From positions 1 through 21,928 of the IMG/VR virus record IMGVR_UViG_3300042881_000615: DNA of 21,928 nucleotides. One strand, written 5' to 3'. Below the pieces are notes generated by a model. It was given only the letters and a program-made list of their open reading frames with translations, was not told the origin of the DNA and ran no database searches. This document shows, piece by piece, positions 1-17,678 of this stretch (position 1 is its first letter; every line of letters begins with the position of its first letter). This DNA is from a virus. Position numbers and translations under genes: made by a program.

Positions 1-3000
1 GCATCAGCGCCAGCCGTCGCAGCCTTCTCGCTCGGCGATGCACCCATTGAGCTAGTCGCCTTGCTGATCCGCTCCTGTGCATCGTCAATGGCATTCTCAA
101 GGATGCCTGCCTGATTGCTCGTCAGGCGACCGCTTGAGTTCAGAGCGTCAAACTGCCCGTAGAGATCAGACAACTGATCCAATGACGTGGCGTTCTCAAC
201 CTCCTTGAGAAGGTCGGCGAACTGCTCACCCATCACACGATTAGCCTTGCCCTTGCGTGTCGTCGCGCCGACGTTTGCTTCTGCGTCCTGCGTTGCCGCA
301 CGCCGCTCGTCTGCACGACGCTGGTTCTCTACTTGCCGTTCGTCTTTCGTTGCCTGCGCGTCTTCCTTGACTCCCTTGACGCGATCCTGCCGATCCTTTT
401 CCGCTTGATCGTTTTCCTTTGCAGCCTTCGCCGTGCGTCCCTCAATGCCTGGACGCTCCTGCCGTCGCTGCTCTGCTCTCGCGGCGTTCTCGTCCCTAAT
501 CTTCTGCACTCGCTCTTTTGTGTCCTTCGCACCAGTGATGAATCCCTGCACCCGAGTCCATGCGATTTGGATGCCAGCCACGAGGTTGTCAAACGTCGCC
601 ATCACGCCGTTTGCGATGTTGTCGAAGAAGCCCATGATGAAGGCTCCCATCGTGTTAAGCAGCGCCGCCGAGTCTGTGTAAATCTTGTCCCACGCGATGT
701 AGATGCCCGAGCCGATATCCGTGAAGACGTCCTGAAACGCTGCCACCCACGGATCAACGTAGGACATCAACGCTTCGGCGCCACGCAGCCAGCCAGCGAC
801 AAGCCCAGCCCAGAGAATGTCCATCGCACCGGACAAGTCGCCGGCAGCGACTGCTTCATAGACGCCGTTGAAGGTGGCCGTGGCTGTGGCGGCGAGGTCG
901 CCCAAGACGACGATGCCGTCAGAGACGGCAGTCGAGAAACCGCCAGCGATAGCACCACCAGCCTCGGTCACGTAGCCCGCCAGCCCAGCGAAGGCACCGG
1001 CGATCTGCGGGCCGAACTGCTTGACGGCGACGCCGACGCCTACAGCGGCAGCAGACAAAAGCAGAAGCGGTGCCAGAGGTGCGAGCCACGCAGCCGCTAC
1101 CGCAGCAGCAGACGCCACAGAGCCAGCCACAGCCATTGCAGTGGCGGCGAGGTATGTGCCGATGCCAGCGACGGCAGAGCCGACGAATGCCGCCACGCCA
1201 CGAGCAGCCGAGCCGAGCCACGCCGCTGACATCGCAGCGGTTGACGCAATCGTCTTGCCGACAGCACCCGTGAGATTGGCGGCGTACTGTGCCATCCGTG
1301 CTGACGCACCCGTTGCCCACCACACGAAAGACTTGTAGGTGAGCGTCAGCCCGCCGACGATGTCGCCGACGAAGCGAGCCATGCCGGAACCAGACACGGC
1401 AAACATCGCACCACGCAGAGCACTCGACGCCATCACGACGCCGTTGAGTCCTCGAATCGTTGCAGAAAAGAATCCAGCGCCAGCAGCGATTCCGCGATTG
1501 AATCCCGTGAAGAACACCGGGAACATTGCCGCAGCAGCAGCCGAGGCGGCACCGCTCATCCGCACAAAGCCGGCTGCACTCGATGCGGCGAAGCCTGCCA
1601 ACGCCGTGGTAGACGACGCCGCAAAGCCAGCCATCGCACTGCCAGCAGTTGCAGCGAACGATAGGACGGACGCCGACGCTCCCAGCATCGACGAGCCGAT
1701 TGAGTTTGCGAGCTTAAGCGTTGCAGGCATCGCCACCAGCGCAAAGCTCTGGCCGACTTTGGAGGCTGCGCCGATCAGCATCGTCAGAGGCGACAGAGCG
1801 AACGCTGCCGCCTTGCCGATTCCAGCCAGGCCAAACGACGTCACTTGTAGCGAGATGCCAAGCCCGACCATCGCACTGCCGACCGCGACCGCAGCAACAG
1901 CGAACTTCGCAAACGCCGCGACGGCTTCCTTGTTGTCAGTCGCCAGCTTCGTCAGCCCGTCGATGAATCCCGTGATGAACGGCAACGCACCCGCGAGAGC
2001 CGGCGCCACGGCATCCGTGATGGCAATCGCCATACGCTGCATTGCCGCCAGCACGCTACCAAACGAGCCAGCCAGGCCCGACATCACCAACTTGTACTTC
2101 TCGCCCACTGGCAGGGCGGATGCCATCGCTTCACGCATCTTGGTGAATCCATCCACGCCTTCAGAGGCGAGAATCGACGCGGCGCGAATGGCATCGGCAC
2201 CGAAGATGCGGCGGAAGATGTCATCCTTCGCCGTCTGGTCAAGCCCGCCCATTGCCTGCGTGAGCGTGCCGATGATATCCACCATCGGCTTCATCTGCCC
2301 GTCAGCACCACGGAACGAGGCGACAGAAAGCCCGAGTTGGTCAAGAGCACCCACGGCATCGTCAGCCGGTGCCATCAGCCGCATCAGCATCGTCTTGACG
2401 CTGGTGCCTGCGTCACTGCCCTTCACGCCGTTATTGGCGAGGATCGCCAGCGTGGCAGACAAGTCCTCAATGCTCTGCCCCGCTAGGCCGGCGACGGCAG
2501 ACGACATCGAGAACGCTTCCGACATCTGAGCGATTGAGGTGCTCGACGCATCCGCAGCAGAGGACAACGCATTGGCGGCGACGTCGGATGACACCTTGAA
2601 CACGTTCATGGCGTCCGACATCACCACAGCCGCCTGGGCAACGTCCATCTCGCCAACCTTGGCGAACTCCAACGCCGTCTTGCCGGCACCGCCAAGGACA
2701 GCATCAAGCGACATGCCAGCCTTCAGCAGTTCAAGCATGCCTTGAGCAGCCTCGGTCGGCCCGACGCCGAGAGCCTGCGACATCGCCATAGACGATGCTT
2801 TGATCTGGTCAATCTGCGCCGACGTCGCACCAGTGCTCGCCCGAATGTTGAGCAGCGTGGATTCAAACGCTGCACCCTGACGCACGGCAGCGGCGATAGG
2901 TGCCGCCATGCCAATGCCAGCAGCAGCAAGCTTGCCGCCGCCAGACGCAAGCGAGCGGCCCATATTGCCGAGAGACTTATTGACCTTGGTCAGTGCCGAG

Positions 3001-3068
3001 AAAAACTTCCTCGGATCGGCACCGATCTCGACAAATACGCCACCGGCTCTGACTGCTCCAGCACTCAT
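1..3068 (-). CDS. Tail tape measure protein (N-terminal part, runs off left edge)
   Basis: Sets tail length and threads the tail tube; the chaperone products coat it during assembly. The frame is open from the ATG at 3068 to base 1, so about 1022 codons are visible and the C-terminus is missing. Residues from about 65 to 330 resemble the TP901-type tape measure core: an AFESTLLNIRASTGAT stretch, then Ala/Met-rich helices. Long Ala/Gly-rich hydrophobic helices follow, including a membrane-like segment near residues 643-683 (bases about 1020-1140) with the run PLAPLLLLS. A highly charged Lys/Arg/Glu/Gln helix, probably coiled coil, lies near residues 850-945. The ATG overlaps the stop of the frameshifted chaperone (ATGA) and has only a weak Shine-Dalgarno, which suggests translational coupling. 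The long plus-strand ORFs here are shadows of this Ala-rich gene. Confidence 0.93.
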   Translation of the reverse strand, partial: MSAGAVRAGGVFVEIGADPRKFFSALTKVNKSLGNMGRSLASGGGKLAAAGIGMAAPIAAAVRQGAAFESTLLNIRASTGATSAQIDQIKASSMAMSQALGVGPTEAAQGMLELLKAGMSLDAVLGGAGKTALEFAKVGEMDVAQAAVVMSDAMNVFKVSSDVAANALSSAADASSTSIAQMSEAFSMSSAVAGLAGQSIEDLSATLAILANNGVKGSDAGTSVKTMLMRLMAPADDAVGALDQLGLSVASFRGADGQMKPMVDIIGTLTQAMGGLDQTAKDDIFRRIFGADAIRAASILASEGVDGFTKMREAMASALPVGEKYKLVMSGLAGSFGSVLAAMQRMAIAITDAVAPALAGALPFITGFIDGLTKLATDNKEAVAAFAKFAVAAVAVGSAMVGLGISLQVTSFGLAGIGKAAAFALSPLTMLIGAASKVGQSFALVAMPATLKLANSIGSSMLGASASVLSFAATAGSAMAGFAASSTTALAGFAASSAAGFVRMSGAASAAAAAMFPVFFTGFNRGIAAGAGFFSATIRGLNGVVMASSALRGAMFAVSGSGMARFVGDIVGGLTLTYKSFVWWATGASARMAQYAANLTGAVGKTIASTAAMSAAWLGSAARGVAAFVGSAVAGIGTYLAATAMAVAGSVASAAAVAAAWLAPLAPLLLLSAAAVGVGVAVKQFGPQIAGAFAGLAGYVTEAGGAIAGGFSTAVSDGIVVLGDLAATATATFNGVYEAVAAGDLSGAMDILWAGLVAGWLRGAEALMSYVDPWVAAFQDVFTDIGSGIYIAWDKIYTDSAALLNTMGAFIMGFFDNIANGVMATFDNLVAGIQIAWTRVQGFITGAKDTKERVQKIRDENAARAEQRRQERPGIEGRTAKAAKENDQAEKDRQDRVKGVKEDAQATKDERQVENQRRADERRAATQDAEANVGATTRKGKANRVMGEQFADLLKEVENATSLDQLSDLYGQFDALNSSGRLTSNQAGILENAIDDAQERISKATSSMGASPSEKAATAGAD

Positions 3069-3804
3069 ACGTGTTTCTGCCAGTCTTTGCCAAAGAGGCG
3101 TTTTAGGTCATCAGGCGTCGCCTGTCTCGGCTTCGGTTTCTTTGCGTAAGGATTCAGCTTGCGTGGGTCTGCCTTCGGCGAGTTCTTGTCCCGGTTGATG
3201 TTTGCCTGCTGTGCCAGCAGGTTTGCCGTGTGCCACCAATCGTGCTCTAGGCGGCTGTCACGAGCGGCGAAGAGTTGTCTGACGGTCCACTTGCCGGGAT
3301 AGACTCCGAGGATTCCTGCGGCTTCCCAGATGGCGTCCCAGACGCTCCTGCGAGGCTCTCCACCGTCGCCTTCTCCAGACCCGCCTCCGCTCTGCCGAGC
3401 ATCTCGTTTGCCACTTCGTCCATCTTGGACGCGAGAAGACCGATCATCTTGCGGAGGCGCTGCGGGAAAAAATCGACAAGTTCCTGCTCTAGCGCTTTCG
3501 TCGCAGCGTCCAGAGAATCGCCACGCAGACCGTCAAGGAAGTCTTCTCGCGACAGTCCCTTAGTCTCGACTTGCTTGGTCAGCAGTGCGTAGAGGATCTC
3601 GCCAATCTTGGCGTACTGGCTACGCAGCACTTGGAACGTCTGCGAGATGTTCGCAGCGTCCACCACGTCAAACGGCACAGCCTTACGCTCGCCGCTTTCC
3701 TCGTCCACGACATCGACCGTGACGTTGTCGCGGACACGCAGCGCAGACGCGACGGTCAACGCCACCTGCCACGGCCTGCCCTGGTCGTCTCGAAACTCAC
3801 GCAT
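3065..3804 (-). CDS. Tail assembly chaperone, -1 frameshift fusion product (GT-type, 246 aa)
   Basis: Predicted long product of the chaperone gene. Ribosomes decode residues 1-113 in frame 0, slip back one base on T TTT TTC (3472-3466) and continue in the -1 frame to a TGA at 3067-3065, adding 133 residues. The -1 frame has no stop across this stretch. It reads as a Pro/Gly/Asp-rich linker (SGGGSGEGDGGE) and then a compact domain with WDAIWEAAGILGVYPGKW, a WWHTANLLAQQANINRD helix and a C-terminal DDLKRLFGKDW. This resembles the T-type domains of phage tail chaperones, which bind tube protein while the G part binds the tape measure. Its stop overlaps the tape measure ATG. I read this frame by hand; it has no obvious start of its own. 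A separately initiated gene is the alternative. Confidence 0.82.
3247..3804 (-). CDS. Tail assembly chaperone, frame-0 product (G-type, 185 aa)
   Basis: Short form of the tail chaperone, placed where siphoviruses keep it, between tube protein and tape measure. The N-terminal half is a small beta-rich domain (residues 1-50, WQVALTVASALRVRDNVTVD) followed by helices (QVLRSQYAKIGEILYALLTKQ; SREDFLDGLRGDSLDAATKALEQELVDFF). After residue 113 the frame-0 tail turns into a low-complexity Ser/Pro/Gly end (ESSESIPASGPSDNSSP), as expected for sequence under less constraint where the -1 frame carries the real domain. The ATG follows the upstream stop by 2 bases with a GAGGGAGTAGGC purine-rich leader. 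The family assignment rests on position, size and the frameshift arrangement rather than strong sequence identity. Confidence 0.85.
   Translation of the reverse strand: MREFRDDQGRPWQVALTVASALRVRDNVTVDVVDEESGERKAVPFDVVDAANISQTFQVLRSQYAKIGEILYALLTKQVETKGLSREDFLDGLRGDSLDAATKALEQELVDFFPQRLRKMIGLLASKMDEVANEMLGRAEAGLEKATVESLAGASGTPSGKPQESSESIPASGPSDNSSPLVTAA
3466..3472 (-). promoter_or_regulatory. Programmed -1 ribosomal frameshift site T TTT TTC
   Basis: On the minus strand the chaperone gene reads GAT TTT TTC CCG in frame 0, giving a perfect X XXY YYZ heptamer T TTT TTC at Asp111-Phe112-Phe113. Both tRNAs can re-pair after a one-base backward slip. The -1 frame is open from here to 3065 and encodes a folded-looking domain. 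Downstream sequence is GC-rich and could form a stimulatory structure, but I did not identify a specific stem or pseudoknot. Confidence 0.82.
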
Positions 3805-3806
3805 GC

Positions 3807-4172
3807 CTACTCCCTCGCTAGCCTCGGGTCGGTCATCTTGCCTTCTAGAACAAACGACGCGATGCCGTCGATTGGGTCTGTCTCACTGATGCCTGTCATC
3901 ACGGCGAGGAACGAAAAACCAGCGGCACCGCCTGACACAGTGAACGTCCCGCCCGAGTGCATCTTCTGAAACGCCGTGCCGAGGCCAGCGACGTCGTTCA
4001 GTTCCACGCTCACCGTGCAGTCGTAGCCTGTGTTGTAGGTTGCCGCGTAGCGACTGCCGTACGGGTTGACGTCAATCGTGCGGGCCGACTCTGTCAGCGT
4101 GACGTTTCGGGCGCTGGCGATAAATCCGCCATCGAGAACGATGGAACAGTCTTTCCCCAGCGTGATCGCCAC
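3807..4172 (-). CDS. Tail tube-like protein, third paralogue (121 aa)
   Basis: A compact beta-rich protein that I read as one of three tandem tail-tube paralogues. It opens with MAITLGKD and shows an ESARTIDV segment, a SVELND strand, a GGTFTVSGG turn and a closing DGIASFVLEG strand. The same landmarks appear in the same order in the two genes upstream. The start is GTG at 4172, overlapping the previous stop as TAGTG and preceded by AAGGAG with 7-base spacing, the strongest ribosome site of the three. This copy sits directly before the chaperone, where the main tube protein often lies, so it could be the dominant tube subunit, but the sequence does not decide that. Tube fold is inferred from size, position and pattern. 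Confidence 0.72.
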   Translation of the reverse strand: MAITLGKDCSIVLDGGFIASARNVTLTESARTIDVNPYGSRYAATYNTGYDCTVSVELNDVAGLGTAFQKMHSGGTFTVSGGAAGFSFLAVMTGISETDPIDGIASFVLEGKMTDPRLARE

Positions 4173-4492
4173 TAGAACTCCTTGGCTGTCACGTTGTAGG
4201 TGACGGCACCGTCAACGCCGATGTTCTCCGACACGCTCATGATCGAAAACGAGCCAGCGGTGCCGGCTGCGGTCAGCGAGGTGATGAGTCCATCGGGATC
4301 GTGGCACTCGATTTCCCACGTCTTCGTAACGAAGCCAGCACGACTGACCCGGCGGCCAGGAGCACCGGCAGAGCCGCCGACGTTGGCACGGTTCGAGATG
4401 TCAATCGTTTCGCATTCCTCGGTGAAGCTCGCCGAGATAATGCCTTCGCCGAACGGAGGAGCGGATGCGTCTTTGCCAAGCGAAATAGCCAT
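4172..4492 (-). CDS. Tail tube-like protein, second paralogue (106 aa)
   Basis: The second of three tandem small tube-like proteins. It starts MAISLGKDASAPPF, shows an EECETIDISN segment where its neighbours have ESARTIDV and SASDVDV, a TWEIECHDPDG strand matching the ELEC and VELND strands, and ends DGAVTYNVTAKEF. It has lost the clear GTFT(I/V)SG turn of the other two and carries a Gly/Ala insertion near residues 38-47, so it is the most divergent copy. The ATG at 4492 has AGGAA about 10 bases upstream, weaker than for its downstream neighbour. It could instead be a specialised tail-tip or tail-end ring, but the shared ends favour common descent with both neighbours. Confidence 0.65.
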   Translation of the reverse strand: MAISLGKDASAPPFGEGIISASFTEECETIDISNRANVGGSAGAPGRRVSRAGFVTKTWEIECHDPDGLITSLTAAGTAGSFSIMSVSENIGVDGAVTYNVTAKEF

Positions 4493-4518
4493 GTGTGATT
4501 GTTCCTATGCGTGAGTGG

Positions 4519-4851
4519 TTAGGCGCTGACAGTGCGAGAGCCGCTGACGGTGAAAGTTTCAATGCCGTCGAGCGGCTGAGACTTGGCAATGTTCGTGCAG
4601 ATGTAAGTCGCGTTGCCGGTCTGCGTGCCGCTGATGGTGAACGTCCCGCCGATGCTGACGCCGGGAGCGTCCACGCACTCAAGCTCAATCGTCTGCTCGA
4701 TGAGAGCCTTGCGGAACTTGCGGGAAGTGTCACCGAACTTCGTGACGTCAACGTCTGACGCCGAGTTGGTGACGGTGCATGACCGAGCGTTCGCGACGCC
4801 CGTGATAGTCACGTCTTTGCCGAGCGTGATCTCAACTGAGCCAATTGGCAT
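4519..4851 (-). CDS. Tail tube-like protein, first paralogue (110 aa)
   Basis: First of the three tandem tube-like proteins. VEITLGKD sits at residues 6-13, so it has a 5-residue N-terminal extension compared with the other two copies. A SASDVDVTKFG segment, an IELECVD strand, GGTFTISG and a closing DGIETFTVSG follow, matching the third paralogue most closely. The ATG at 4851 is preceded by AGAGGG with about 8-base spacing. It opens the tube block after a 91-base gap that carries a repeated 19-base element just behind the preceding stop. Assignment to the tail tube is inferred from order (after tail terminator and gp10-like genes, before chaperone and tape measure) and the compact beta pattern. 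Confidence 0.68.
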   Translation of the reverse strand: MPIGSVEITLGKDVTITGVANARSCTVTNSASDVDVTKFGDTSRKFRKALIEQTIELECVDAPGVSIGGTFTISGTQTGNATYICTNIAKSQPLDGIETFTVSGSRTVSA

Positions 4852-7392: not shown

Positions 7393-8538
7393 CTACGAGA
7401 TGTTGAGTACGGCCGTGATGCGGTCGTTGTTTGCGCTATCGCCGCCGTCCTTGGCATATCGCAGGACGAGATGCTGCCCAGATGTAACGGCTACGCTGCC
7501 GGTGGACGTTGAGGTGCCAGTAACTGTTCCAGAAACCAGAGTCATCCCAGCGGGGTGATTGCTGTAACCACTAAAAGCCGAGTGGTTGGCCGGAGATGCT
7601 GACGTGCGATACAGCGCGCCGCCGTCATATCCGTCTTCGCTGCTGGCGGTGACTGTGTACGAGAGCGTTCCACTGGTGCCGATCAGCAGCCAGAGCCGTG
7701 TATCAGAGTCGTCGCCGCCGCCCGTGACTGTGGCCGTGATAGTGCTGGTGCCAGTGACGGTGTACGACCCCGGCCCGAACTTGGCCGCATAGGCAATCGG
7801 CGGACCCGCCGCAGGCGTCACCGCACTAGATGCCGTTGAGTAACTGCTAGTGCCAACTCCATTCGTCGCGGATACTCTGAAGACAACAGCCGTGCCGTTG
7901 GTGAGTCCTGTCACGGTCGCACTCGCCGAAGCCGAGGCCGCCCGCGTGAACGTCGTCCATGTCGAGCCGCTGTTGGTGCTGAACTGAACGGTGTAGTCCG
8001 TGATCGGGGTCTGTGCGAGTACGCTGGGTGCCGTCCACGACACGGTGGCCTGTGCATCGCCAGCCGTCGCAGTGACGCTCGTCGGTGCACCGGGAACGAA
8101 CAACGCACGCAGCACCGAGTCACCAGTTGCAGAAAGCACCCCGTCGCTGATTGTCAGGCCCGAACCAACCTTGACACCACCAAGCTCGCTTGCCGTTGCG
8201 GCGGCGAGCGTGAACGAGCTACCGCTACCACCACCGCCAGACGTTCCTGCCTCAACGTAGACGCCGCTTGCGTCCCAGAAAAAGATTCGACGCACATCAG
8301 TCGCGTGGTACAAGGTGCCGACACTACCCACTGCCGGGAAGCCCGCCGCCGTCGATGCCTCAACGATGTTTGCGGAGCCGCCGCCGCCGCCGCTGCCTGC
8401 ATTGAGCAGCACAGCCACGTTCGCAGCGTTACCGGCGAAGAGCCGATTGTCTGCCGCGTTGTACGCAAGCTCGCCGTAGCTCACGCTGGGCGTTGAGCCT
8501 GCGACGTTCGACCGCTTTACCTTTACGATCTTTGGCAT
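7393..8538 (-). CDS. Fibre or appendage protein with Fn3 domain (381 aa)
   Basis: Residues 1-45 are the short N-terminal module found in three proteins of this cassette (PKIVKVKRSNVAG, then ELAYNAADNRLFAG). Residues 66-105 are the Trp/Tyr adaptor module (FPAVGSVGTLYHATD, FFWDASGVYVEAG) ending in a poly-Gly/Ser linker. Residues 150-243 form a fibronectin type III domain (PGAPTSVTATAGDAQATVSW, ITDYTVQFS, VTGLTNGTAVVFRVSATN). The last 130 residues are a Ser/Thr/Gly-rich beta domain. Fn3 domains are frequent in phage tail and surface proteins and often give weak sugar contacts or spacing. The ATG overlaps the stop of the large fibre gene as TAATG, so the two are translationally coupled. Confidence 0.75.
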   Translation of the reverse strand: MPKIVKVKRSNVAGSTPSVSYGELAYNAADNRLFAGNAANVAVLLNAGSGGGGGSANIVEASTAAGFPAVGSVGTLYHATDVRRIFFWDASGVYVEAGTSGGGGSGSSFTLAAATASELGGVKVGSGLTISDGVLSATGDSVLRALFVPGAPTSVTATAGDAQATVSWTAPSVLAQTPITDYTVQFSTNSGSTWTTFTRAASASASATVTGLTNGTAVVFRVSATNGVGTSSYSTASSAVTPAAGPPIAYAAKFGPGSYTVTGTSTITATVTGGGDDSDTRLWLLIGTSGTLSYTVTASSEDGYDGGALYRTSASPANHSAFSGYSNHPAGMTLVSGTVTGTSTSTGSVAVTSGQHLVLRYAKDGGDSANNDRITAVLNIS

Positions 8539-11500
8539 TACGGCACCGTGAGAATGGCTGCGTTACTGTTGACTGTCGTGTAGCTGTCTTTCGTGAACAC
8601 GGCTCGATATCGCTTGCCGCTGTCGCCCGAGACCGGCGACAGTGCGAGCGAGCTAGACGTGGCACTGCTGATGTTCGTCCACGTCGCGCCGCCGTCAGAC
8701 GACTGTTGCCACTGGATGGAAGGCGCGCCGAAGGTGGTCGTGGCGGAAGACGAGAAGGTGGCCGAGGTCGAGCCGCCGAGGTTGATGATTGTGCCGCCGA
8801 ACGAAGTGTCACTCAGAGATGATTGCCAGAAGATTCGGCCAAGCCCGACTTGCGTCGGCCCTACCGATCCGCTGGTTGAAAGGACTCTCGTTGTCCACGA
8901 AAGGCCACCGTCGTCCGACGTGTAAATCGTCGCTGACGACGGGAAGTTGGTGAACGCAATACGGCTACCGCTGACGTAGAAACGCCCGTTTCCGTTCGCG
9001 CCAATCGTAGTGCTCTGCCGCAGTGCCCACGTCTGTCCTTGGTCGTTCGACGTGTAAAAGCCTGCATTTCCAACAGCCGCCCAGCGAGGAGATGCAGGAA
9101 GCACGGCAACAGTCGCGCTGCTGCCCGGTAGGGCCGCAAACGACACGGTCGTTGGTGTCGTGGCCGATTCGTTCGCATACGACAGCAGCCTTGGGGCCGA
9201 CCCGCCGTTAACCGACAAATTGTGGACGATGTAGCCGCCTGCGACCGAGAGCCTCACGTTGTACGAGGTTGTAACGACGAGACGAATAATTTCCTGATGC
9301 ACAGGAGCCCCGTCGCCAACAATCGTCGCAACGTCAAATTGGTATTGGTTGGTTTGGCTCAAATACGACGGTTGCATCGCCAAAACCGTGCGGTTGCCGA
9401 CTGTCAAAGAGTCAAACCACGACGCGCCCACGCCACCCGCACGAGCGGCCCACGTCACGCCATCGGACGAAACTGCACCTGCCGTCGAGCTTGCTCCCTG
9501 CGAACTGATGACCACGAATCCGACGCCGGTATGAACGACGATTGCAAAGAACGCATTTCCAATCGCAGCCGCAAGAACGGTCGAGTTGCGCGCCGTCCAT
9601 GTCACGCCGTCGGTGCTGGTTGCATATCGAGGCGATACGGTGCTTGAGGTTGTCCGATAAGTCAGATACACGCCGCCGTAATACAGAACGTCACTCCACT
9701 CGCCGACGGCGGGAAGTGCCAGATTGGTTCGCGTCCAATTCACTCCGTCCGCAGAGGTGGCGATGTAGTCGCCACCAAAATCTAGGTTGCTCGGAGTGGC
9801 GAACCAAAGACCGTTGGCGTTGCTGACACGATTCCACCGCCCCGCCGGAAGGGCAAACGCTGACGTGGCGAAGGAGGACACGCTCGCCGTCGTATTGCTC
9901 GGCTGCTGCGTCACCGTGATTGCATCAAGCGGAACCGTCAGTGTGGCAACACTCGAACGTACCGTGTTCCAGCCGCTCTTCTCAAACTTCGCCCGGTAAC
10001 GCTTGCCCGTGTCAGCGTTCGTCAGTCCCGTCAGCGAGAGCGACGAATTCGTCTGCCCGCTCACGTCAGAGAATGTCGTGCCGCCGTCAGTCGAGACTTC
10101 CCACTGGATCGTCGGAGAGCCTGCTGGCGATGTCGCCGCAGCCGAGAACGAAGCAGAATAGTTTGGAGTCGTGCCCGCCACGGGCGAGCCTGTGGCACTG
10201 CTGGGCTGCGACGTGACCGTGATCGGTGCCACGTCGAGCAGAGCAGCGTTGCTCGTGGCGTCGGCGTAGCCGCTGCTCGACACGATGCAGCGGTATCTGT
10301 AGTTGTCGTTGCCCGTCTCGGTGATTCCCGTGAGAGCGTAGCTGGCAGATGTCGCACCGCTGATGTTCGTCCAGTTGGTTCCGTCAGGCGACGACTGCCA
10401 CTGGTAGGCGAGCCCAGTGCCCGGTGTGGTTGCCGACACTGAGAACGACGCCGAGGTGCCGTTGGTCAGGTTCACGTTCTGCGGCTGCGTGATGATGCTA
10501 ATTGCCGCCGACACGGTGAGCGTCGCTTCGCCGCTGGTGACGGTCGCCGTAGGCGTGAGTTCGACCACGACCGCTGGGAGCCACCCGTTGACGGCAGTGC
10601 CGCCCGTGCCCGCAGCACCAGAGGAAATCACGACTCGGTACTTGTCGCCGCTGTTCGTCGCGTAGCTGAGATCGGCGAGACCAAGCGTTGCCGACAAGCC
10701 GGTGCCGATATTGACCCACGCACCCGCGCCACCCGCCTGCCGCTGCCACTGGTAGGTCAGTTCAGCGTTCTGCGACGCCGTCGCGGTGACGGCAAACGTG
10801 GCTGTGCCGCCGACTGCCGTCTGGTTGCTGGGCTGCACCGAGATCGTGATGGTCGGCGTCGTCCAATCCTCAAGCGACGTGCGACGCCACTGATCCACGG
10901 CATTGGCGACATAGAGAAAATTCTCGTCGTAGCTGATCTGCCCGGCCTTGGTCGTCGTCTTGGTCGTCGTCGGTGCCGTGGACCAGGCGATGCCGCCCGC
11001 CTCAATCGTCACGTTGCCGGTCTTGCCGTTGACGCTCTGCACCGGCGCGGCTGCTGACGCACGCAGCGTGGTGAAGTACAGGTTGGTTGAGCCTTCAGCC
11101 ACCGAGTCGGTGGAGCCGGGGCTTGCCGAAATCTCGATGTAGGCAGTGCCCGACCATCGGTAGACCTTGTTCGTGTCACGGGCGACAAACAGCTTTCCAA
11201 CTTCGCCCGTCGCCGGGAAGTTGGCAAGTGCTGCGAACTCGACAACGTCATCGACAAAGCCCGGCAGCTGGCTGGACGGGACGAGACCATTGACCAGCGT
11301 TGCGTATGTGCCGCTCGCTTGCTTGCCATCAAGTGCGGCTTGCAGCCCCGTAACGTCGCTGACGGCGTGCTGATGGGTCGCCGGGGCGAAGGTCGTCGGC
11401 ACATTCGTCAGGTTTGCGTAGCTGATCGTCGGCACAGCATGGACGTGGTCAGCACGGGCGGCAAATCCCGCCGTGCCTGCCGACGCAACGCCCAGCGGCT

Positions 11501-12074
11501 GCGGCGTCTCGTCGGCGAGGTTCGCCGTACCGTCAACGCCACGCGGAATGGTGAAGCTCAACGAGACGGTGTTGCCAGAAGTCAGGCTGTCAATCTTCGC
11601 CTGCGTGCCAGGTGCTCCCGTCGCGACGGTGCCGACCTGAATCGTCGTGTACGGCCCAGCCGCGCCAGTGTCGCCCCTGTCGCCCTTCGGCAGCGTCAGC
11701 GATAGCACCTGACTAGGAGCAGTGCCGGTGATCGTTGCCGCCGGATTGTCGCCCTTCGTCACGGTGCCGATGGACAACGAGTTGACCGGCCCGGCTGGCC
11801 CAACTTCGCCCTGCAAGCCACGCTCACCGACCGCACCTTGCGGCAGCGTCAGATTGAGCGTCTGAGACGGCGACACGCCGGTCAGCGTCGCAGCTGCGTC
11901 CGTGCCAGTGACCACCTTGCCAATCGCAATCGTGTTCGCAGGCCCAGCAACTCCAGTGTCACCCTTCGGCCCACGCTCGCCAGCGGCAGAAAACGTGACG
12001 TTGACTGTGTCGCCGTTGCCGACAGTCGGGTTGATTGTCGTTGAGCCGTTGACTGTGACAGAAATCTCACTCAT
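8538..12074 (-). CDS. Large modular fibre: collagen-like repeats, Ig-like domains, inserted beta-propeller (1178 aa)
   Basis: The largest intact protein here. An N-terminal beta domain (residues 1-30) leads into three collagen-like Gly-X-Y runs (32-46, 83-97, 131-142) alternating with three beta repeats of 40-50 residues. A fibre shaft follows with an HVHAVP and THQHAVSDVTGLQAALDGK segment, an adaptor module (286-320) and the AGQISYDENFLYVA module (359-404). Then come Ig-like domains near 408-520, 524-616 and 617-714. A fourth Ig starts at 717, is interrupted at about 735 by roughly 360 residues with Asp-box motifs (SxDGxxW), and resumes at about 1096 to the end. It is probably a trimeric adhesion fibre. 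The start is ATG 12074, overlapping the upstream stop (ATGA); a farther in-frame ATG at 12146 would lie inside the upstream gene and is not preferred. Confidence 0.85.
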   Translation of the reverse strand: MSEISVTVNGSTTINPTVGNGDTVNVTFSAAGERGPKGDTGVAGPANTIAIGKVVTGTDAAATLTGVSPSQTLNLTLPQGAVGERGLQGEVGPAGPVNSLSIGTVTKGDNPAATITGTAPSQVLSLTLPKGDRGDTGAAGPYTTIQVGTVATGAPGTQAKIDSLTSGNTVSLSFTIPRGVDGTANLADETPQPLGVASAGTAGFAARADHVHAVPTISYANLTNVPTTFAPATHQHAVSDVTGLQAALDGKQASGTYATLVNGLVPSSQLPGFVDDVVEFAALANFPATGEVGKLFVARDTNKVYRWSGTAYIEISASPGSTDSVAEGSTNLYFTTLRASAAAPVQSVNGKTGNVTIEAGGIAWSTAPTTTKTTTKAGQISYDENFLYVANAVDQWRRTSLEDWTTPTITISVQPSNQTAVGGTATFAVTATASQNAELTYQWQRQAGGAGAWVNIGTGLSATLGLADLSYATNSGDKYRVVISSGAAGTGGTAVNGWLPAVVVELTPTATVTSGEATLTVSAAISIITQPQNVNLTNGTSASFSVSATTPGTGLAYQWQSSPDGTNWTNISGATSASYALTGITETGNDNYRYRCIVSSSGYADATSNAALLDVAPITVTSQPSSATGSPVAGTTPNYSASFSAAATSPAGSPTIQWEVSTDGGTTFSDVSGQTNSSLSLTGLTNADTGKRYRAKFEKSGWNTVRSSVATLTVPLDAITVTQQPSNTTASVSSFATSAFALPAGRWNRVSNANGLWFATPSNLDFGGDYIATSADGVNWTRTNLALPAVGEWSDVLYYGGVYLTYRTTSSTVSPRYATSTDGVTWTARNSTVLAAAIGNAFFAIVVHTGVGFVVISSQGASSTAGAVSSDGVTWAARAGGVGASWFDSLTVGNRTVLAMQPSYLSQTNQYQFDVATIVGDGAPVHQEIIRLVVTTSYNVRLSVAGGYIVHNLSVNGGSAPRLLSYANESATTPTTVSFAALPGSSATVAVLPASPRWAAVGNAGFYTSNDQGQTWALRQSTTIGANGNGRFYVSGSRIAFTNFPSSATIYTSDDGGLSWTTRVLSTSGSVGPTQVGLGRIFWQSSLSDTSFGGTIINLGGSTSATFSSSATTTFGAPSIQWQQSSDGGATWTNISSATSSSLALSPVSGDSGKRYRAVFTKDSYTTVNSNAAILTVP
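8790..9872 (-). other. Beta-propeller-like domain inserted in the fourth Ig-like domain
   Basis: Residues about 735-1095 of the large fibre. Asp-box motifs occur at 774-780 (SADGVNW), 820-826 (STDGVTW), 869-875 (SSDGVTW), 1009-1016 (SNDQGQTW) and 1053-1060 (SDDGGLSW), each followed by a strand, as in BNR/sialidase-type propellers. The flanks together rebuild one Ig domain when aligned to the preceding one. No catalytic sialidase residues were identified. Confidence 0.6.
11526..11981 (-). repeat. Three protein-level repeats: collagen-like Gly-X-Y run plus beta unit
   Basis: Residues 32-183 of the large fibre. Units read NTIAIGKVVTG, then SQTLNLTLPQG and GERGLQGEVGPAGP; NSLSIGTVTKG, then SQVLSLTLPKG and GDRGDTGAAGP; and TTIQVGTVATG, then TVSLSFTIPRG. 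Gly-X-Y runs of 4-5 triplets join them. The pattern suggests a trimeric shaft of alternating collagen-like helix and beta modules. Confidence 0.75.
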
Positions 12075-12451
12075 GCGCCCGGTGCCCTCGGGATGCAGCT
12101 GCCAGCCAAGATTGTTCGCGTCATAGTCGTGCCAGGCGTGATCCATCGCAGATACCAGAGGTATCTAATGGCTGGACTCAGAGAGGCAGTCTGTACCTCG
12201 TTGAGGCTCCAGATGATTGCGCCAGTGGACGCCGTCACGACTTGAATGACAGGCGTCGCCGCAGTCGCTCCGACAGTCGATACAGTGCCGCCGCCGCCGC
12301 CTTGGAATCCGCCAGTGCTCGCGACATAGACAGCCGATTGCAGCGTGTACGAGGCAATCGACTGCCCCAGATTCATGGCGATATTGACCTCGTCGCCCAC
12401 CACGAAAGTGACGTCAAGTTGGCCTGGCAGCAGAGAGAAGACGTTGGACAT
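12071..12451 (-). CDS. Small beta-rich appendage protein, possible Ig-like adaptor (126 aa)
   Basis: Not firmly recognised. The middle reads VTFVVGDEVNIAMNLGQSIASYTLQSAVY, a poly-Gly linker (residues 47-55), VIQVVTASTGAIIWSLNEVQTASL and a YLWYLRWITPG strand before TRTILAGSCIP. A GD-x-V-x-I strand followed by a second sheet ending in an aromatic strand is the pattern of small Ig-like adaptor domains that start baseplate or fibre proteins (for example BppU N-terminal type domains). A stand-alone protein of this type could dock the large fibre, whose gene starts inside its stop codon (ATGA). The ATG at 12451 has GAGGTG 6 bases upstream. Function is inferred from position and fold pattern only. 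Confidence 0.55.
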   Translation of the reverse strand: MSNVFSLLPGQLDVTFVVGDEVNIAMNLGQSIASYTLQSAVYVASTGGFQGGGGGTVSTVGATAATPVIQVVTASTGAIIWSLNEVQTASLSPAIRYLWYLRWITPGTTMTRTILAGSCIPRAPGA

Positions 12452-15863: not shown

Positions 15864-17678
15864 TCAAGAAGCGTCAGCCTTCACGCCGGCGAGGTACTCG
15901 GCCTTGGCAACGCCAAAGTCGAAGTAGCCACGCATCTGCACGCCCAGCGTGTTGAAGTCGGCTTCCGCCGTCTCAACGATGGGAGACTGCACGCCGTTGA
16001 GGAACGCCACTTCCATCACCGGCATGTCAGCCGGCGAGGCAAGCAGGTAGTAGTCCTCGGCGCTGGACAGGTAGCTGGTCGAGACGACCTGATACCGACC
16101 GGCGAGCACGTTCACGTTGGGGCCAGCGGACGAGCCGCCAACCAGCAACGCCGAGCCCATGATCTCCGCAGCCGACAGTTCGATGTCGGACGGCACGAGC
16201 AGCACGCGAGGCTCAACGGCAACCGGGTTGCCATCGGGGTCTTTGAGCTTGCGGAACAGCGTGGCAATCGCCTTGAGGTTGCTCAAGCTGAGAGCACCCG
16301 CCGTGGTCTTCTTGTTGCCACGGCCCGTGGTGAAGAACGCCGAGTCATCTTGGAACGAAGCCCAGAAGACGTCGTTGAGCTTCAGAGCACCGCCACGACC
16401 GATCCGCTGCGGCACCGCAGTCAGAGCACCGAGGTCATCGTTGATGAGGTCATTGCGAGTGACACTCGTCATGATGCCGTAGGTCTCTGCCGAGATCGTC
16501 CGCGACTCGTCGCTGACGGCAGCGTTCTTGAGTTCGCCGCCAGGGGCGACCTTCTCAAACTTCATGCCACCGTTGAGCCGGTAGCTCGTCAGCGCCTTGA
16601 AGTCGTTCACGCTGCGAACCGACGAGATGGACCGCCACGAGGACTCGACGCCGTTGAAGCCGGCGAGCAGGAACTTGTTGACGGTCGCCGACAGGATGCC
16701 GCTGATGCTGTGGGTCGCCCAAGCAGCAGCAAGGATCGGACGCAGAGTCGCGGCGGAAATCCGACGCGAGCCGGTGTAGCCGCCTTCCTCAGCAGCCGAG
16801 AGCAGAACTTCGCCGAGGCTCGTCGTCCGCTGAATCTTGCCAGCGGCTTCGAGGGTCTTGGCGTCGTACTGCTTCTCGACATTCGGCAGGTTGCCCTGGA
16901 GGGCAAACGCCGCTTCAATCACTTCGGGGCTGCGGCTGGTCGGCTGCGCCATGTGGATGGCAGGAGCCGCCGGTCGCTCGTCGCGGGTCGCAAGGAGCTT
17001 TTCCATGTTGGAAACTTTCTGCGTGAGGGACGCGATCACTTCGGCGTGATCGACTTCGGGCTTGGTCTCCACGGCGACACTCGCCGTGGCTTCCACCGCA
17101 GCCGTGACCGGCTCTTCGGTGGGCGTCTGGTTGGCGTTGTCCGCCATAGAAAACTCCTCGTCGGCTTCAGCCGCGATGGCGACGCTGGTAGCTGCATCAG
17201 CGCCCAAGGTGACAAACGAAACCTCACGCAGCGATGAGGCTTTGACGACTCGCACCGGCCCGATGTGGGCAGTGCCGTTGACGGTGGTGACGCCTTCGGC
17301 GTCGATCTTCTGGTGCCTGCGGACATCGGCACCCACGCTCGCCTGGAACTGGTAGCCAGCGGCACCAAGGGCGGCGACCTGCCGTGCGTTCTCGTTGTCG
17401 GCCAGAATCTCGCCTTCAACGATGATCTGCCCAGCTTCGATGAACGGGCGACCCTGCCCGACGATTGAACCAAGTGCGTAGTCGTGGCCGACCACCACGG
17501 GCACAGTCGCCGGCAGCTGCATCCCAGCCATGTCGATCACGACCGGCTCGCGGCTCCAGCCCTGACGGATAGGAGCACCCGTGTAGGCGACGATGCGAAA
17601 CTTCTTGCCAGCCGGTGCCGAATCGCCTTCGGCAGCTTGCAGGAACTCGACACCAGAATTGAGATTGATTGCGTTCAT
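15864..17678 (-). CDS. Prohead protease / scaffold / major capsid protein fusion (604 aa)
   Basis: One ORF encodes a maturation protease and the capsid subunit. Residues about 25-170 match the HK97-type prohead protease pattern: VPVVVGHDYALGS with His65, FQASVGADV with Ser114 and SLREVSFVTLGADAATSVAI with Glu152 as the probable catalytic or motif residues. Residues 178-250 are a linker and short coiled coil (HAEVIASLTQKVSNMEKLLA) likely serving as scaffold. Residues about 270-604 are an HK97-fold or gpT-like capsid protein (ETYGIMTSVTRNDLINDDLG; PRVLLVPSDIELSAAEIM; MRGYFDFGVAKAEYLAG). Such fusions are known in phages. The ATG overlaps the portal stop (ATGA). A strong internal ribosome site precedes Met178, so a 427-residue scaffold-capsid product is probable. 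Confidence 0.92.
   Translation of the reverse strand: MNAINLNSGVEFLQAAEGDSAPAGKKFRIVAYTGAPIRQGWSREPVVIDMAGMQLPATVPVVVGHDYALGSIVGQGRPFIEAGQIIVEGEILADNENARQVAALGAAGYQFQASVGADVRRHQKIDAEGVTTVNGTAHIGPVRVVKASSLREVSFVTLGADAATSVAIAAEADEEFSMADNANQTPTEEPVTAAVEATASVAVETKPEVDHAEVIASLTQKVSNMEKLLATRDERPAAPAIHMAQPTSRSPEVIEAAFALQGNLPNVEKQYDAKTLEAAGKIQRTTSLGEVLLSAAEEGGYTGSRRISAATLRPILAAAWATHSISGILSATVNKFLLAGFNGVESSWRSISSVRSVNDFKALTSYRLNGGMKFEKVAPGGELKNAAVSDESRTISAETYGIMTSVTRNDLINDDLGALTAVPQRIGRGGALKLNDVFWASFQDDSAFFTTGRGNKKTTAGALSLSNLKAIATLFRKLKDPDGNPVAVEPRVLLVPSDIELSAAEIMGSALLVGGSSAGPNVNVLAGRYQVVSTSYLSSAEDYYLLASPADMPVMEVAFLNGVQSPIVETAEADFNTLGVQMRGYFDFGVAKAEYLAGVKADAS
17145..17159 (-). promoter_or_regulatory. 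Internal translation start in the protease-capsid gene
   Basis: The minus strand reads GAGGAGTTTTCTATG: a consensus Shine-Dalgarno GAGGAG 6 bases before an in-frame ATG (Met178, MADNANQTP). It falls exactly at the boundary between the protease domain and the scaffold linker. Initiation here would give scaffold plus capsid domain (427 residues) without the protease. Confidence 0.72.

Follow-up and report, generated by a model that had tools for sequence, protein, structure and literature searches.

A conserved slippery heptamer points to a programmed -1 ribosomal frameshift in the tail assembly chaperone gene of an uncultured phage group

Two overlapping reading frames, in a -1 relation to each other, lie immediately 5' of the tape measure gene in a 21,928-base stretch of viral DNA, referred to here in its entirety as the window (Table 1). 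They are very probably best explained by programmed -1 ribosomal frameshifting within the gene for a tail assembly chaperone. What the sequences themselves show is a slippery heptamer that is conserved, codon-type constraint on each of the two frames, the absence of a start codon for the second frame, and an unusually stable predicted stem. From these features we infer that the slip occurs and how efficient it is, what the stem does, and the functions of the proteins. In the proposed mechanism, the majority of ribosomes would translate the ORF from 3804 to 3247 into gpG, a protein of 185 aa. The others, a minority that the stem 6 nt downstream probably slows, would slip back by one base on T TTT TTC, with both Phe tRNAs re-pairing with UUU, and would read on in the -1 frame through the T domain to produce gpGT, with 246 aa. 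If the proteins act as they do in lambda, the G part would bind the tape measure protein, and recruitment of the tail tube protein would fall to the T part. The locus looks like an ordinary lambda-type G/GT frameshift, which would extend the known range of such frameshifting to an abundant group of uncultured phages. A search limited to open-licence literature, in the portions of text available there, found no printed account of the frameshift of this phage group.

Table 1 Features of the window and of the G-T region
Feature	Coordinates	Strand	Remarks
Virus record window	21,928 bases		GC 61%
Tape measure protein	1..3068	-	PF10145, E=1.1e-37, and tape measure PHROGs; continues beyond window edge
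-1 frame extension	3065..3466	-	133 codons and stop TGA 3067-3065; base 3466 read twice
T-domain core (VWDAIWEAAGILGV...WWHTANLLAQQANINR...NPY)	3068..3343	-	Conserved; weak Phage_tail_T match
gpG-like ORF, frame 0	3247..3804	-	185 aa; stop 3249-3247
Hydrophilic linker, -1 frame	3344..3466	-	Double-coded with gpG tail
Predicted stem, 3' arm GCGGAGGCG	3382..3390	-	Inner stems fold between the arms
Predicted stem, 5' arm CGCCTCCGC	3451..3459	-	
Spacer, heptamer to stem	3460..3465	-	6 nt
Slippery heptamer T TTT TTC	3466..3472	-	Frame 0, codons 111-113 GAT TTT TTC (Asp-Phe-Phe)
Purine-rich SD-like stretch GAGCAGGAA	3481..3489	-	Ends 8 nt 5' of heptamer
Three tandem small paralogous proteins upstream of G	3807..4851	-	Context

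An earlier note on this DNA had placed a T TTT TTC heptamer in frame 0 at Phe112-Phe113, followed by an open -1 frame of 133 codons reaching the start of the tape measure gene, and both are present as described. The -1 frame, in which the preceding stop is at 3535, closes with a TGA that overlaps the tape measure start codon as ATGA. The -1 part of the predicted product begins with PAAPPQ and ends with DWQKHV. Between the slip and the stop, the -1 frame of the window contains no ATG, GTG, or TTG, and a listing of ORFs of at least 60 aa by standard start codons has no entry in the -1 stretch, so that, as the note had remarked, simple ORF calling overlooks the T half. Within the scanned stretch, T TTT TTC is the sole X XXY YYZ motif in which Y is A or T, and it is directly overlapped by T TTC CCG, a motif of the same form with Y = C that was seen on the relatives. 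The bare heptamer is not rare, with at least one copy in 53 of 100 shuffles of the window, and the signal beyond chance therefore lies in its invariance among relatives and in the switch of constraint between the frames.

Relatives were collected by scanning viral contigs, with the 80 best taken out of 199 for the -1 product and out of 224 for gpG, and then wider sets by way of more distant members (the best 80 of 249, 151, and 82 relatives). Once duplicates had been removed, 136 distinct G-T regions were measured, one of which (L003) is identical to that of the window. Rows without G (L185), with a contig that ends before the site (L317), or with broken frames (L318) were excluded, and L300 was handled apart. 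The frames of L318 are broken in both G and the tape measure gene, probably by an assembly or sequencing error. TTTTTTC occurs at the same place in all 136 regions, where G identity to the window falls as low as 44%, and the -1 frame of each region also encodes a T domain, the core of which was recognized automatically in 135 and by eye in L288. L300, which reads IDFF at this position, likewise has the heptamer and a -1-frame T domain. In the last two scans, the queries were T domains alone, which do not span the heptamer; these scans gave 79 loci, of which 27 were examined. One of them, L397, is without the site, and the heptamer with its -1 relation is present in all 26 loci that include it, some of which are near-identical to each other, with G identity down to 29%. 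The conservation in related phages that the note had asked about thus extends to every measured region, to L300, and to the 26 further loci. Two scans of genome contigs gave 183 and 216 pattern hits, none of which was confirmed as a relative. In tblastn searches of 50,697 phage records, G and T of the window had no match at E up to 1. G of one distant member had no match in the phage records, and its T had a single match (E 0.3), in a Mycobacterium phage at a place where a minor tail protein and a hypothetical gene are annotated.

Across the 136 regions, the three codons of the heptamer read GAT in 135 and AAT in one, TTT in 136, and TTC in 136, whereas elsewhere in the G part TTT accounts for 159 of 514 Phe codons and GAT for 323 of 1430 Asp codons. 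All three wobble positions of the heptamer are invariant, and most neighboring wobble positions vary. The pattern of variability, counted in 66 distinct close sequences, changes along the region. In the G-only part, the third positions of frame 0 are variable in 104 of 112 columns, compared with 43 and 23 at the other positions, and in the first 40 codons of the overlap they are still the most variable (24 of 40, against 15 and 10). Over the last 32 codons of the overlap, variation has moved to position 2 of frame 0 (24 of 32, against 3 and 8), and in the T-only part this position, which is the wobble position of the -1 frame, varies in 52 of 60 columns compared with 12 of 60 and 26 of 59 at the others. 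Wobble variation thus shifts from position 3 to position 2 of frame 0 across the overlap, suggesting translation of both frames, with frame 0 dominant in one half of the overlap and the -1 frame in the other.

These counts also bear on the tail of gpG, which in the window extends 72 codons past the slip. The earlier suggestion that this tail becomes low-complexity is correct for about its last 30 residues only, but residues 115-145 form one confident helix in the AlphaFold prediction, and frame 0 is the constrained frame over the first 40 codons of the overlap. We see an even chance that the overlap is double-coded in four layers, comprising the constrained, helical gpG tail, the linker of GT, the slippery site, and a dedicated stem that would set the ratio of gpG to gpGT. 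If so, gpG and gpGT would be proteins with alternative C termini rather than short and long forms of one protein.

Entry into the -1 frame can be placed by its stops and starts. In the -1 frame, a stop immediately precedes the heptamer in 9 of the 136 rows, in L300, and in 13 of the 26 further loci, and no ATG, GTG, or TTG lies between the slip and the T core in any of the 135 rows with a recognized core. Together, these observations place entry at or just after the heptamer. Start-type codons do occur inside the T core in 48 of the 135 rows, too late to give a whole T domain. Other loci speak against this placement: an ATG stands just 5' of the heptamer in L329, a GTG far 5' of it in L398, L399, L404, and L405, and both a GTG and a TTG in the linker in every member of a set of seven (L335-L341).

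It is very unlikely that the overlapping T TTC CCN, and not T TTT TTC, is the site of the shift. T TTC CCN occupies the same in-frame position and would result in the same peptide; both slips give ...DFFPAAPPQ, and a junction peptide therefore cannot separate them. However, a slip on T TTC CCN needs no TTT at codon 112, where TTT is found in all 136 regions, and its own Pro codon, codon 114, varies between CCG (88), CCC (47), and CCA (1). A slimmer chance still attaches to transcriptional slippage, in which the polymerase would add one U on the T6C3 tract and normal translation of the altered transcript would yield GT. The tract does contain a homopolymer run, TTTTTTCCC is conserved, and passages of one paper describe a bacterial IS element in which the polymerase slips at T5C5 (PMC5009743). 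However, as described in those passages, slippage at T5C5 deletes one base and so leads to the other frame, it requires a 5' stem-loop, insertions there are blocked by an rC:dA mismatch, and highly efficient slippage was demonstrated on runs of 9, compared with the 6 T present here (PMC5009743). A structure spaced 6 nt from the heptamer also suits a ribosome, for which the usual spacer is given as 5-9 nt in an excerpt from PMC7618472.

We consider it scarcely probable that T is a separate gene with a start of its own, possibly at a non-standard codon. The -1 frame of the window does contain ATC and CTG codons, and the GTG and TTG codons in the linkers of all seven of L335-L341 could be cited in favor of such a gene, but the absence of ATG, GTG, and TTG from slip to T core in 135 of 135 rows speaks against it, and a separate gene would leave the invariant heptamer unexplained. 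In the loci examined, there was no clearly separate T gene and no site with an intact frame that lacked the heptamer, the two findings that the note had said would count against its proposal. That the frames are merely broken, by pseudogene formation or sequencing error, has a negligible probability: one contig (L318) does have broken G and tape measure frames, but the arrangement recurs in the 136 regions, L300, and the 26 further loci, and both frames are constrained. The proposal that a -1 frameshift creates a GT-type chaperone is supported by the conserved heptamer, the T domain in the -1 frame, and the lack of a start codon.

What is new here is a conserved, stable predicted stem 6 nt 3' of the heptamer, which some clades are without. 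Its spacing falls within the 5-9 nt expected for the structure in a bipartite -1 signal. The 84 nt 3' of the heptamer were folded in 13 diverse relatives, of which 12 gave z-scores from -1.97 to -4.49, the exception being L280 at -0.47. The window, which has the same 84 nt as L003, stands at -1.97, but 130 nt of it taken with the heptamer reach only -1.11, with 26 of 200 shuffles as good. In 25 diverse relatives, folding windows placed at the end of the heptamer or 7 nt past it had mean z-scores of -2.77 and -2.78, and all other folding windows from -238 to +245 had means above -1. Against a null of sequences synonymous in frame 0, which does not preserve the -1 protein, 24 of the 25 were more stable than 95% (mean z -3.4); L281 was not. 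Three upstream control windows gave -1.22, -0.86, and -0.34 with the synonymous null. L280 is mixed, with -0.47 in the 84-nt folding and -2.16 against the codon null.

In an alignment of 93 distinct sequences, 96.2% of the cells of the stem are paired, compared with 35-55% when the stem is slid along the alignment, and RNAalifold kept only 5 pairs over the 93 rows. The main register of the stem is found in 83 of 92 rows and other registers in 9. Changes on both sides of a pair were seen in 6 cells at 2 pairs. Shuffles never reached 6 cells (89 of 500 reached 2 pairs), but slid stems reached up to 5 cells and 3 pairs, and the covariation therefore proves little. Farther out, folding covered 22 of the 27 loci examined from the T-domain scans; 12 of the 22 have z below -2, L398 and L400-L403 have z near 0, and L335-L341 are without the long stem. 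Four of the latter (L336, L337, L339, and L340) keep TTTTTTC, and in these another hairpin is predicted, which is shorter and begins 5 nt downstream. No Rfam family matched positions 3000-4000 at E up to 1. The alignments, with the stemless clades included, provide natural data on the evolution of a possible frameshift-stimulating stem in a double-coded stretch. On the other side of the heptamer, the SD-like stretch GAGCAGGAA is a possible frameshift stimulator. Computed pairing with an assumed anti-SD sequence is strongest around this stretch across relatives; because it encodes a conserved Glu-x-Glu, a stimulatory role is inseparable from coding.

The note had proposed a profile search of the -1 product against tail chaperone families, and T of the window does match Phage_tail_T (Pfam PF06223), but at 13.4-14.4 bits, below the curated cut-off of 25.9. 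With E up to 1, 16 of 23 diverse members match this family (best 0.0038, under the Pfam cut-off), as do none of 10 reversed-sequence controls; in one member, T matches DUF4381 slightly better, with E 0.0018. The G part matched no known family in Pfam or PHROGs and no solved structure significantly. Taken together, searches of Pfam, PHROGs, NCBIfam, and solved structures with G and T gave sub-threshold or chance matches only, the PHROGs and NCBIfam scans with alignments having covered T alone. Comparison of T and G profiles with the lambda group by hhalign, with alignments that are shallow, found nothing. AlphaFold models of G and T, with mean pLDDT of 80.5 and 85.6, led to no significant fold in structure searches, of which the plain PDB Foldseek search covered G; the top viral match of the T model is a 'Minor tail T domain-containing protein' at E 0.92.

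In passages of published descriptions, the ORFs of different phages are said to have low sequence similarity (PMC5009743) and G/GT frameshifting to be conserved in many tailed phages (PMC5009743, PMC4493119). For lambda, the same passages give a product ratio of 30:1 and describe a minor frameshift product, with G binding the tape measure protein and T binding the tube protein (PMC5009743). As here, lambda gpG and gpGT come from two overlapping frames directly 5' of the tape measure gene, and the -1 shift takes place on an X XXY YYZ heptamer, according to an excerpt from PMC7618472. The two systems differ in that the heptamer is T TTT TTC here and G GGA AAG in lambda, and in that gpG continues for 72 codons past the slip here and for 5 codons and a stop in lambda; the profile comparison, made with shallow alignments, gave no significant similarity of G or T to the lambda group. 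A stable fold lies a few nt 3' of the slip site in lambda, PhiR12_2, and N15 (L320, L321, and L323) as well, with z-scores for the 84 nt past the slip of -3.5, -4.0, and -4.5, respectively, although in lambda and PhiR12_2 other windows are more extreme than the one after the slip. The stem may therefore not be special to this group. The dnaX signal of E. coli, as outlined in part of PMC3711429, resembles the present one in having an SD-like stretch, a slippery heptamer, and a downstream hairpin, but belongs to a different gene with a different product. For two other phage tail chaperone genes, an excerpt from PMC3711429 gives measured -1 product levels of 6-7%.

All identified genes of the window are on the minus strand and include a terminase with a GpA nuclease domain, a lambda-family portal, a protease-capsid protein, small tail proteins, and the tape measure protein, with the order around the site being tube-like proteins, G, T, and tape measure. 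The three paralogues upstream of G are probably tail tube proteins. They have 110, 106, and 121 aa and 22-34% mutual identity (E 2.6e-15 to 0.002), and occupy the place where one tail tube protein is expected; the protein at 3807-4172, the only one of the three that was scanned, has weak tail PHROG matches (E 0.14 and 0.17). At 15864-17678 on the minus strand, a single ORF of 604 aa fuses a protease-like N-terminal part to a capsid protein, with a weak match to Peptidase_S78 (E 0.038), a match to Phage_capsid_4 (E 2.9e-37), and a PHROG match to 'major head and protease protein'. Between the head and tail genes, a minus-strand ORF of 1202 aa (8538-12146) contains collagen-like glycine-proline stretches and repeated segments that, judged from their sequence, look Ig-like.
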